Positions 14,036-50,322 of a stretch of DNA of 64,000 nucleotides are shown in pieces. This DNA comes from Clostridium sp. CX1 (lineage in GTDB: Bacteria > Bacillota > Clostridia > Clostridiales > Clostridiaceae). Location of the stretch: positions 62,001-126,000 of the forward strand of contig NZ_JAODOO010000006.1 of assembly GCF_025398335.1 (NCBI RefSeq), given 5' to 3'. The position numbers were made by a program, and so were the translations under genes. The first letter of the stretch is position 1; every line of letters starts with the position of its first letter. The notes beneath the pieces were generated by a model, which worked only from the letters and a program-made list of their open reading frames with translations, was not told the DNA's origin and searched no databases.

Positions 14036-14071
14036 AATATCTATGTAATAAGAGAATAAGGAGAAATTTTT

Positions 14072-14680
14072 ATGAAGCATAAGTTCACAATATTTTCAGA
14101 TAACATTTGACCCTTTTGCTATATTGGCAAAGGTATTGTCGACAAATTAAAGGAAGAGTTTGATATCGAAGATGAATGGCTTCCCTTTGAAATTCACCCT
14201 GAAACTCCAGAAGAAGGGGTCCCTATGGCAGAAAAATTCCCATCAGCTTCAATAGATAGGATGTTTGACAACCTCAAAAGTATGGGTATGCCCTATGGTA
14301 TAGATTTTAATAAAAATGATATTTTGTCAAATTCCCGTAAATCTCTAGAAGCAGGAGAGTATTCAAAGGAAATAGGCAAATTTCATGAATTCCACCAAAA
14401 TATATTTCGTGCTTACTTTAGTGAAGGTAAAGATATAGGTGATATAGAAGTAATAAAAGGTGTTGCCCAAATCAGTGGGTTAAATATAGATGAACTCACA
14501 GGCAGGCTTCACTCAGGTATTTATGAAAAAAACGTAAGAGATGTTCAAAAGAGAGCTCAGATGTATGAAATAAATAGTGCTCCAACATTTATAATAGATG
14601 ATAAATTCGTCATTGTAGGTGCACAGCCATTAGAGGCTTTTAGAAAAACCTTGTTAGATATTGAAAAACAACAATACTAA
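14072..14680 (+). CDS. Selenocysteine-containing FrnE/DsbA-like oxidoreductase
   Basis: Probable thiol:disulfide oxidoreductase of the FrnE-type DsbA family, 202 residues when TGA 14108-14110 is read as selenocysteine. The ATG at 14072 has AAGGAGA 7 nt upstream. The frame runs MKHKFTIFSDNI-U-PFCYIGKGIVDKLKEE, so the active site is U13-P-F-C16, exactly where the family has CPxC. The frame stays open after the TGA and keeps the whole fold, including WLPFEIHPETP, the helical insert and the cis-Pro loop SAPTFIIDDKF with VGAQPLEAF. Two overlapping hairpins follow the TGA as SECIS candidates. Annotation from ATG 14225 would miss the active site. The alternative is a nonsense mutation, unlikely at precisely the catalytic codon. 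Confidence 0.87.
14111..14139 (+). promoter_or_regulatory. Candidate bacterial SECIS element
   Basis: Two folds are possible immediately after the TGA. Fold A is CCTTT/AAAGG plus GC/GC with a single bulged T at 14117 and a 7-base loop. Fold B is ATATT (14121-14125) with GGTAT (14132-14136) and the loop GGCAAA, which starts 16 nt after the TGA and has G at its first two positions, as in the bacterial SECIS model. Stability is modest. Confidence 0.5.
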
Positions 14681-14691
14681 TCTCAAGCTGT

Positions 14692-14808
14692 ATCAAACTA
14701 AATGGGGCTATGGCATTAAGAAATTTACATACAATATATTGGTTTGCAGCTCAATAACAAACGCAATATGTTGGGAACTTTATTCTTAGTGCCACAGCCC
14801 CTTTTGAT
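14692..14808. repeat. Long imperfect hairpin, MITE- or terminator-like
   Basis: Nested arms: ATCAAA with TTTTGAT; a 19-bp arm (14704-14722 with 14783-14801, two non-Watson-Crick positions); and CAATATATTGGTTTG (14732-14746) with 14758-14773. It fills the gap between the convergent selenoprotein and HAD genes and may terminate both. Its length and compensating differences resemble a small palindromic mobile repeat. Confidence 0.55.
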
Positions 14809-19199: not shown

Positions 19200-19350
19200 T
19201 ATAAAAGTTTATTATTTTGTTTCTTTCCTACTTCATAGTGTTCCATTTTGCCGAAGCTACTTTGGTTTGTATAACACTTCATAGGCCTTGCTACTTTTCA
19301 GTAGTGGGTTGCAACGAATACCCAATTTAGAATATCTTTTAAACTGATAT
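19200..19350 (-). ncRNA. Probable TnpB-associated omega RNA / right end of IS607-like element
   Basis: The sequence from the 3' end of tnpB toward ribD folds into consecutive hairpins on the minus strand: TGGGT/ACCCA (19305-19309 with 19320-19324), CTACT-GAAA-AGTAG (19291-19304), AGTGTT/AACACT (19237-19242 with 19273-19278) and the tetraloop stem GC-TTCG-GC (19250-19257). TnpB systems of IS605/IS607 encode their guide scaffold exactly here, with the guide taken from DNA beyond the right end. The exact end is not resolved. Confidence 0.5.
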
Positions 19351-20481
19351 TTCTAAACCATATTTTGCAAGGTTATATGAAGCATTCTTATCCCTATCAG
19401 CTACAAATCCGCATTCACATTTGTAAGTTCTATCTGATAGTTTTAAGTCTTTTTTTATCCTACCACATGAGCTACAAGTCTTTGATGAAGGATAAAAAAT
19501 AGGTACTTGGATAAACTCAATTCCATATTTAGCACATTTATTTTTCATTTGAGTAATAAACATACTAAATCCTTGCTCTTGTATTGCCTTTGACAAGTGC
19601 TTATTTTTCATCATATTAGATACTTTTAAATCTTCCATGACTACTCTAAATGGCTTGGCTTTCGCTATTTTACAAGTAGCTTGATGTATATGATTTTCTC
19701 TAATATGTGTGATCTTACTATGAAGTCTTTTAATCTTCTTTTCAAGTTTTGCAATGTTCGCAGTCTTTTGGTAACATACTCCTTTCTTATTCATCTCATA
19801 TTTTTGTGAACATTGTCTTTGTAATCTTTTTAACTTTTTTGTTATTCTTTTAACCTTTGCTGTCTTATTAATATTCTTTGTATCCAATTCATCAATATTA
19901 GTTACTGCAAGCGTCTTAATACCTAAATCTACTCCTACAGTAAAATTATTTAATTGCTCTTTTCTATTTTCTTCTTCGATCTCAATAGCAGCAATCAGCA
20001 CCCACACTCTGCCATTAAACCTTACTCTTGGATTACTGAATTTATTTACTTTTGATAAATCAATGTCGTAGTTATACCTACATTGTATCTTACCTATTTT
20101 TTCAAGATTAACTATGTTTTCTTTAAAGTAGATTTTATCATATCTTGAATAAAACTTATCCTTAGACTTCTTCTTACTTTTGAATTTAGGAAAACCACTC
20201 CCACTAAAAAAATTCTTGTATGCCCTATCTAAATCTCTTAATGCTTCTTTTAAGGTAGCGTGGCTAATATCATAAAGCCATTCAAATCCTTCTTGATTTT
20301 TAAGTTTGGTAAGTTCTACACCTAATTCCACAACTGACAATTTCTTTTTAGTGGTTTCATAGTGTTTAATTTGCTTATCCAATCCCCAATTAAACACATA
20401 TCTCATTGACCCCACATGTTTCCACATAAGAATTTCCTGCTCTTTAGATGGAAAAAGCCTAATATTAATCGCCCTTTTCAT
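19339..20481 (-). CDS. tnpB: TnpB-family RNA-guided nuclease (IS607-type element)
   Basis: 380 residues, full length for TnpB. The N-terminal helix-turn-helix/REC-like part starts MKRAINIRLFPSKEQ. The RuvC-like nuclease triad is intact: D185 in VGVDLGIKT, E283 in VMEDLKVSN and D362 in ADRDKNASYN. The zinc finger is CSSC...CECG (C336, C339, C355, C357). TnpB proteins cut DNA specified by an omega RNA read from the element's right end and favour element retention. The ATG at 20481 has AAGGAG 10 nt upstream, inside the remnant tnpA tail. The gene lies in the sense direction between the FMN riboswitch and ribD, so riboswitch read-through would transcribe it. Confidence 0.95.
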   Translation of the reverse strand: MKRAINIRLFPSKEQEILMWKHVGSMRYVFNWGLDKQIKHYETTKKKLSVVELGVELTKLKNQEGFEWLYDISHATLKEALRDLDRAYKNFFSGSGFPKFKSKKKSKDKFYSRYDKIYFKENIVNLEKIGKIQCRYNYDIDLSKVNKFSNPRVRFNGRVWVLIAAIEIEEENRKEQLNNFTVGVDLGIKTLAVTNIDELDTKNINKTAKVKRITKKLKRLQRQCSQKYEMNKKGVCYQKTANIAKLEKKIKRLHSKITHIRENHIHQATCKIAKAKPFRVVMEDLKVSNMMKNKHLSKAIQEQGFSMFITQMKNKCAKYGIEFIQVPIFYPSSKTCSSCGRIKKDLKLSDRTYKCECGFVADRDKNASYNLAKYGLEISV

Positions 20482-21174: not shown

Positions 21175-21245
21175 CTTTTATAGTATTACATTTAATATAT
21201 CCACTTATGCATATATCTTCTAATGTAAATTAAGCTATCTCATAT

Positions 21246-21356
21246 CTATCTTCTTTCATCCAGACTTTACTGTCGGCCTCGGAGTTTCACCGAATCATAC
21301 CTTACGGCTCGCGGGCTATACCGCCGGTGGGGAATCTCACCCCGCCCTGAAGATTT
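21246..21356 (-). ncRNA. FMN riboswitch (RFN element)
   Basis: The minus strand holds the complete aptamer: P1 arms ATCTTC/GAAGAT (21248-21253 and 21349-21354), then AGGGCGGGGTGAGATTCCCC, ACCGGCGGTATAGCCCGCGA, GATTCGGTGAAACTCCGA and GCCGACAGTAAAGTCTGGAT, all RFN core blocks. High FMN should favour the terminator at 21123-21152. The natural target is ribD, but 2.1 kb of mobile DNA now separates the two. Confidence 0.97.
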
Positions 21357-21391
21357 ATTTTTTTATGATTTCATAATACCACTATTTTTTT

Positions 21392-23370: not shown

Positions 23371-25038
23371 CTAAATAAATACTGCTTGAACCCAATAATA
23401 CAATAGATATAAGGTAAATACTACCGTTAACGGGATAACTATAATTGTCACCTTCAAATACTCCCTCCAGGATACATTAATAGCACTTCTCTTTAAGATA
23501 TACATCCATATTAAGGAGGCTAAAGTTCCAATTGGAAGGAGAAGAGATCCGATATCAGTGCCAATTATAGTAGCTACATAAATGGTTTTTAATATAAGTG
23601 GACTTAAACCCATATTAGTTAACGTAATGGTACCTATCATTAATGCGGGATGGTTATTAAAAATATTAGATAGAAGAGACATTAGTCCTCCCATTACGAA
23701 GCTTGCGTAAAATAAACCTTTACTTACAATAGGTTCACAAACTTTGACAAAGTATTCTGTTAGTCCAATATTGTTCAAGCCATAAATAATCACATACATT
23801 GAGAAGGCAAACAATAAAATATGCCAAGGTGTTTTCTTAAAAATATCCAGGGGGTTTGTCCTTAAATAATACCACCTAAGTGCTAAAAGTATAAGTGAAC
23901 CTGATACTGCTACAATTTCTATTGGAATTCTATAATAAGATGCAACAAACAGTAAACAACGTATACCAAATACAAATGCCAAAATTCCTAGCATAAAATA
24001 TACTCTCTTCTCTTTGTTATTAAGGGCAATATTTTCTTCAAATGGGTGAAACTCTCTTGCAAAGAATTTTTCATCTAATTCCACTATTGGCTCCGGAAGA
24101 GTCCGAGGAAGTCTCTTTTTTAGTAAAAGAAACATCAAAACCGACATAAATAGAAGTCCAAATAAGCCGGGAATAAATATCATCTCTGTATACTTATAAA
24201 GTGTCAAGTTGATAATATTTAAGGAAATTAAGTTTGTAATGTTACTTACTCCTATGGGTGTACTTGACCCTGTTGCAATCAATGCTCCACTTAATAGGTA
24301 AGGCAGTTGCTCACTTGTCTTTAATTGTAGGTTTCTTAATAATAATATAATAATAGGGGTAGTTATCAGAATACTGCCATCATTATTAAAGAGCATAGTC
24401 ATGAAAAAACATAACAATTGTATATACCAATATAACCGATATCCTGACCCCTTCGCTAAAATTGACAGCTTAGCAGCGGCCCAATGAAAAAATCCAAAGC
24501 TTTCTAGTATAACTGCCATAATAATAGTTGCAATAATAGTGATAGAAGCTCCACCAATTTTATGAGTAATCTCTACTAAATTGTCATAACCTACAACTCC
24601 TATAAATAGTATCATTATAGCTCCTGCTGCTGCAGGGTATGCTTCATTTATTCCCGCCGGTCTTAAAAAAATAATTATCATTGTCATAAGAAATATGAAA
24701 ATCGTTGCTATTACTATATTAAAAAAAAATATTATTAAAGTTCCAAGTATTAATATAGTAAAGAGAACAATCACCTTTCTATCTTTCCAAAACTTTTTTC
24801 CTTGAACTGTTTGTGAGGGTAGTGCAGGTGTTTCAATTTCTCTAATAACTTTAATCCTTTCATGGGGTGGTTCTGGATGTTGTAGATGGGGCAGTTTATC
24901 TCTCTTTTCCTGTGGCGGTCTCGGCCCTCTATAAAGATCTGCAAGATTTTTTTCAGGTTTTTCAAATAATTCATCTTCATGTTCATAGCACCAAATAGTA
25001 TATAATATTATCAAAATTATTATCAGTGTGTTGCTCAT
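23371..25038 (-). CDS. ArsB/NhaD-type (SLC13-like) permease
   Basis: Ion-transporter-superfamily permease, 555 residues. After one N-terminal hydrophobic stretch comes an unusual 75-residue polar segment rich in Pro, Glu and His (HLQHPEPPHERIKVIREIE), then about eleven transmembrane helices. Family features are MTMLFNNDGSILITTPI (the duplicated N-D membrane motif), LIATGSSTPIGVSNITNL and the second-half counterpart SNIFNNHPALMIGT. The transported ion (arsenite, Na+, dicarboxylate) cannot be told; no arsR, arsA or arsC is nearby. The ATG at 25038 has GAGGAG 11 nt upstream. Confidence 0.82.
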   Translation of the reverse strand: MSNTLIIILIILYTIWCYEHEDELFEKPEKNLADLYRGPRPPQEKRDKLPHLQHPEPPHERIKVIREIETPALPSQTVQGKKFWKDRKVIVLFTILILGTLIIFFFNIVIATIFIFLMTMIIIFLRPAGINEAYPAAAGAIMILFIGVVGYDNLVEITHKIGGASITIIATIIMAVILESFGFFHWAAAKLSILAKGSGYRLYWYIQLLCFFMTMLFNNDGSILITTPIIILLLRNLQLKTSEQLPYLLSGALIATGSSTPIGVSNITNLISLNIINLTLYKYTEMIFIPGLFGLLFMSVLMFLLLKKRLPRTLPEPIVELDEKFFAREFHPFEENIALNNKEKRVYFMLGILAFVFGIRCLLFVASYYRIPIEIVAVSGSLILLALRWYYLRTNPLDIFKKTPWHILLFAFSMYVIIYGLNNIGLTEYFVKVCEPIVSKGLFYASFVMGGLMSLLSNIFNNHPALMIGTITLTNMGLSPLILKTIYVATIIGTDIGSLLLPIGTLASLIWMYILKRSAINVSWREYLKVTIIVIPLTVVFTLYLLYYWVQAVFI

Positions 25039-50011: not shown

Positions 50012-50049
50012 ACATCATATTAAAAGTACTCTCCCTCCGAAAGTCCATA

Positions 50050-50215
50050 AAACATATTAGGCAGGTCTCCTGACTTATGATTCTTCCTCCCCTTTACCTT
50101 CCTCTAAATAGAGTGGTTTAACAAAGGTTCGTCCTCAAATACAGTAGCGGGGGCTGTAGCGGATTCTAACCGCATTCCCTTTTCACCTTTTTTTAAAAGG
50201 CACCTATATAAATTA
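50050..50215 (-). ncRNA. Cobalamin riboswitch
   Basis: The minus strand carries the B12 box AGTCAGGAGACCTGCC (50060-50075) and the core GGGAATGCGGTTAGAATCCG followed by ACAGCCCCCGCTACTGT, preceded by AGGTGCC. Adenosylcobalamin binding should reduce expression of the long operon starting at cbiP. A TTGACA (50256-50261, minus) lies just upstream as a possible -35, but the -10 is not convincing. Confidence 0.96.
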
Positions 50216-50322
50216 TTTTATTTTACACTTTTAGTTTATTATAAGCTTCATTATATGTCAATGGCTTCTAAGGTATCCATTAACTCCATATCAGTTACAA
50301 ATGCAGAAACTACAAGCTCTAT

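Follow-up and report, generated by a model that had tools for sequence, protein, structure and literature searches.

Within the window, the whole stretch of 64,000 nucleotides analysed here (GC content 32.7%), the gene at positions 14072–14680 of the forward strand almost certainly encodes, judging from sequence comparison, a FrnE/DsbA-like thiol:disulfide oxidoreductase of the cytosol that would attack with selenocysteine (Sec), its UGA being decoded via SECIS and SelB. The TGA in its active site is very probably read as Sec. By comparison of sequences, a TGA occupies the catalytic codon, the genome possesses Sec machinery, and a predicted hairpin accompanies the Sec genes but not the Cys genes; these observations support the proposal of an earlier sequence-only reading that Sec takes the place of the attacking Cys. 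The gene is a further example of the DsbA-like kind of selenoprotein listed since 2005.

The frame opens with the ATG at 14072, closes with TAA at 14678–14680 and comprises 203 codons, the thirteenth of which, TGA at 14108–14110, is its single internal stop. A Shine-Dalgarno-like AAGGAG (14058–14063, forward strand, read directly from the sequence) lies 8 nt before the ATG. Translated through the TGA, the gene yields a protein of 202 residues with a putative Sec13 as the first residue of U-P-F-C, the position held by the first Cys of CPFC in FrnE/DsbA relatives; the U-x-x-C motif of DsbA-like selenoproteins is present in the form UPFC. Cys16 (TGC, 14117–14119, forward strand), the presumed resolving residue, is the sole Cys of the protein. 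The read-through product matches PF01323 (DSBA) over residues 7–194 (E = 3.4e-31; 108.9 bits, cut-off 25.6), and none of the NCBIfam models reaches its cut-off against it. The ribosome site and start, the TGA as thirteenth codon and the otherwise unbroken FrnE-type frame with its cis-Pro loop SAPTF (codons at 14576–14590, forward strand) are as the sequence-only reading had described them. An AlphaFold2 model built from nine aligned sequences has a mean pLDDT of 93.6 and a pTM of 0.89. The best solved relatives by sequence are the FrnE protein 5cnw (E = 3.3e-27), which we take to be that of Deinococcus radiodurans, and SCO1869 (3gl5; E = 3.3e-18).

The codon at the Sec position was read in 52 homologues, excluding a weak 61-residue match with one TGA and one TAG (G096). 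It is TGA in 26 of them and TGC or TGT in the other 26, which places the TGA at the first Cys of CPxC, as had been claimed. No other stop occurs within the matched stretch of any of the 52; the random disruptions that would speak for a decaying gene are absent. Among homologues scoring above 225 bits, the window gene included, 19 of 22 carry TGA. Seven relatives with 41–62% identity share the TGA at the equivalent of codon 13 and, together with its occurrence in 26 of the 52 homologues, they indicate that its conservation as a codon exceeds chance. In the sample of relatives, 14 of 97 genomes give a match (own genome counted), including a match of 61% identity with one TGA (G050) and one of 41% with TGT at the codon (G045). 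Six contigs from metagenome-assembled genomes (MAGs), titled delta proteobacterium, Deltaproteobacteria, Desulfobulbaceae or Desulfocapsaceae, are 41–52% identical and carry TGA in all six cases.

Two wider samples were searched at 1e-30 as cut-off; since six of the nine rows of the search profile are MAGs of this kind, both searches favour the MAG side. In the sample of the gene's own class, 8 of 391 genomes (own counted) match at 9 places, two of which, in the own genome and in G204, contain one TGA. In the sample of the phylum around G459, the Desulfocapsaceae MAG of locus L029, 79 of 395 genomes give matches, including four known from the earlier samples; of its 80 places, 66 contain one TGA and 14 none, a split that counts stops per row, the codon itself having been read in the 52 homologues. 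Plasmid records with relatives number 734, all below 60% identity, and the 15 of the 734 listed are 29–35% identical. Viral contigs gave 29 pattern matches, none confirmed as a relative.

Judged by its genes, the genome (4.24 Mb in 71 contigs) is able to insert Sec. The genes selA, selB, selC and selD, whose presence the sequence-only reading had named as a check, are all found: selD, selA, selB and the tRNA-Sec gene follow one another in a single cluster (L010) on a contig other than that of the window. The three protein genes exceed their NCBIfam cut-offs, and the tRNA-Sec scores 62.7 bits against a cut-off of 47, with anticodon tca. The selD gene carries an in-frame TGA, and two grdA genes have one TGA each, at a CxxU position. 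Glycine reductase, together with the low GC of the window, makes a clostridial origin of the genome probable. When 25 genomes were searched, with only four drawn from the G459 phylum sample, a tRNA-Sec above the cut-off was present in all 9 that carry the TGA form, compared with 8 of the 16 that carry a Cys form; in a control, 5 of 14 named genomes were positive. A phage-type integrase-like gene, recognized by eye, lies about 110 bases past the tRNA-Sec gene (L002:1706–2830, reverse strand), which suggests that selC serves as an integration site.

A predicted bacterial SECIS apical hairpin of 7 pairs with an AGGUA loop is located at 14124–14142 on the forward strand, the loop beginning 20 nt past the TGA. 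Its AGGU resembles the loop of E. coli fdhF. Bacterial SECIS elements have been defined by a hairpin right after the UGA with a small apical loop containing G (PMC1088965), and the predicted window hairpin, with its AGGUA loop, conforms to this description. Among the 27 Sec genes, the window gene counted, all 7 pairs are present in 18, six pairs in 8 and three in one (L065), which forms a different stable hairpin outside the shared register; none of the 26 Cys genes exceeds 5 pairs, and three Cys genes of the near clade (L012, L049, L052) have 4, 5 and 5. We note that the register was derived from the Sec genes and that the pair counts therefore favour them. The UPWC subclade retains the hairpin with other letters.

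Covariation was evaluated for all Sec rows except L065, which gives 26 rows, 25 of them distinct. In these rows 95.4% of 175 cells pair, and both sides have changed in 17 cells, compared with 3.9 in shuffles. The covariation score is 0.338 against 0.146 in shuffles (0 of 500 as high), and versions slid along the alignment reach at most 0.119. Two of the five measures, the both-side-changed pairs (44 of 500 shuffles as high) and the pair types (430 of 500), are not above shuffles, and related sequences may exceed shuffles without any structure. The changes fall mostly between two subclades and hence represent few events. If only the 19 nearest Sec rows are considered, none of the measures stands above shuffles (for covariation, 173 of 500 reach the observed value), and 66.7% of the cells of the lower stem pair. 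Folded alone, the 58-nt RNA of the window prefers another hairpin (z = −1.5). The stem sits within conserved coding sequence. Of 20,000 recodings that preserved the amino acids and drew codons according to their use in 22 window ORFs, 0.095% give an equally stable apical hairpin, 2.0% give all 7 pairs, and 6.4% reach the energy of the wider stretch. The stem makes use of codons that are rare in the window ORFs, GGC (8% of Gly) and GTC (3% of Val). Rfam yields no family at its gathering score near the gene, with five matches far below.

The same evidence bears on other explanations of the TGA. The gene might be a pseudogene in which a Cys codon has mutated to a TGA that nothing reads. It has a single match to its protein across its own genome, and of the six further genomes sampled from the genus five lack a match and one has only a Cys form of 32% identity, so that the gene is dispensable in the genus. 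However, the TGA is shared by distant genomes in a matched frame otherwise free of stops, the genome holds Sec machinery, and the stem is built of codons rare in this window; we regard a pseudogene as very improbable. Equally improbable is a start at the ATG at 14225, giving a protein of 151 residues without the active site as the product or as a second product. Mechanical ORF finding does return this frame (14225–14680), which agrees with the earlier prediction that annotation from this ATG would lose the active site, and a purine-rich AAGGGG, seen by eye at 14214–14219, lies 5 nt ahead of it. Yet conservation and the DSBA match reach upstream to residue 7. It is conservation that leads us to set aside both the pseudogene and the shortened frame.

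Decoding of the TGA by means other than Sec, for example by a near-cognate tRNA or by a general recoding of TGA, seems the most remote of these explanations. Low-level read-through of UGA is a general phenomenon, but nothing here points that way, and the Sec-specific machinery and the SECIS-like hairpin argue against it. A tandem TGA TGA that by eye appears to close a gene at L010:579 is a hint against general recoding.

Under the preferred reading, in which the TGA encodes Sec, the hairpin just 3' of the UGA would recruit SelB with Sec-tRNA, and the ribosome would insert Sec at codon 13. In enzymes of the DsbA fold the first residue of CxxC attacks and the second resolves. The Sec13 selenolate would accordingly make its attack on a partner protein's disulfide or other oxidised sulphur; resolution of the mixed bond would fall to Cys16, leaving an internal selenylsulfide. 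The protein is most likely a cytosolic reductase, since no signal peptide is seen by eye in its N-terminus MKHKFTIFSD. We infer from the comparisons the actual insertion of Sec, the direction of reduction, the cytosolic place and a partner.

Two characterized Cys proteins offer a comparison. FrnE of D. radiodurans (DR_0659), assigned to COG2761 (PMC1978522) and proposed to act in the cytoplasm as a disulfide reductase (PMC8945050), resembles the window protein in its DsbA-type domain, its CP(F/W)C site and its predicted cytosolic location. It differs in having Cys instead of Sec and in a C-terminal CXXXXC, which is absent from the window protein, as this has no Cys besides Cys16; the motif is also missing from some other FrnE proteins (PMC8945050). 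Lmo1059 of Listeria monocytogenes, which belongs to the DsbA family, carries CPFC and reduces GSSG strongly (PMC10715225), is alike by its description, in the Cys form.

In a tree of 53 rows, whose bootstrap had not settled and which includes one very long row (L033), the window gene clusters with those of G050 and G204 (99/95), with the Cys form of G045 as neighbour (88/85). Six switches between Sec and Cys are required by the tree, and well-supported branches force three of them; its root serves for drawing only, and it therefore carries no direction of change. As a tentative proposal, one we consider possible rather than probable, a whole FrnE branch, with its centre on the Desulfobacterota side, may have Sec as its standing and perhaps ancestral state, the clostridial genomes holding a small offshoot of it. 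Repeated replacement of Sec by Cys would then let the SECIS decay, and the one-Cys, selenol-only cytosolic reductase would be regenerated otherwise than FrnE of D. radiodurans.

A partner was sought among neighbouring genes, for which ORFs were listed at 12 loci and 10 ORFs of four loci were scanned; no recurring family was found among these four. The neighbours at L028 are TetR-like and radical SAM genes upstream and an aldehyde dehydrogenase gene downstream, and the upstream ORFs at L029 have the same lengths as the two upstream ORFs of L028 (lengths only compared). At L025 the neighbours encode aconitase and malonate decarboxylase, at L026 a DUF485 protein and at L032 a peptidoglycan-binding protein. 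Promoter-like sites near the window gene are not above shuffles, and the sole terminator-like site lies upstream on the opposite strand. Just downstream of the gene is a palindromic repeat of about 105 bases (14698–14807, forward strand; fold z-score −7.1) with the ends GGGGCTRT...ACAGCCCC. The terminator scan does not flag it; it may end the gene's transcript. Since the genome contains five further copies at 87–89% and two at 72–74%, the repeat looks like a small mobile, MITE-like element.

Elsewhere in the window, a TnpB/OrfB-type gene (19339–20481, reverse strand; region 19225–20481) stands among riboflavin genes, with a RAGATH-18 RNA about 54 bases beyond its end; guide RNAs derived from RAGATH-18 have been described with IS607 TnpB (PMC11061315). 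An FMN riboswitch (21244–21358, reverse strand) lies upstream of the riboflavin genes. The window also contains a cobalamin riboswitch (50043–50222, reverse strand) and a gene for an ArsB-like arsenical pump (23371–25038, reverse strand).

That Sec-containing Dsb-like proteins are known as a class, as the sequence-only reading had stated, is borne out by published lists. The 2005 Sargasso Sea paper lists a 'DsbA-like protein' with 9 sequences, COG2761, UXXC and SECIS elements (PMC1088965). A table of 2006 has a DsbA-like entry of 4, with Anaeromyxobacter dehalogenans, Desulfovibrio desulfuricans and Desulfotomaculum reducens among its organisms (PMC1794560). A review of 2022 (PMC9312934) and the table of a 2026 review (PMC13188914) retain the DsbA-like family with PF01323 and UxxC, and two Asgard sequences were reported in 2024 (PMC11227280). 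The window protein shares with this family (form 1; PF01323, COG2761, UxxC) the Pfam domain, the UxxC motif and Sec as the attacking residue, and, as the UxxC family already appears in papers from 2005 to 2026, we do not consider the gene a new family. Compared with the published DsbA-like selenoproteins, to which it is likened by family description, its clade (own genome, G050 and G204) comes from its own class. Titles and opening lines of abstracts that join FrnE and selenocysteine include none on a Sec-containing FrnE.

The window gene leaves the picture of selenoprotein biology unchanged. It illustrates how the active site of such an enzyme escapes gene finders for which TGA is always a stop, and the phylum sample points to many genes of this sort within a single phylum. 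Sister genes of the Sec form, with the hairpin intact, and of the Cys form, with the hairpin weakened, make up a good set for asking why FrnE proteins gain or lose selenium.
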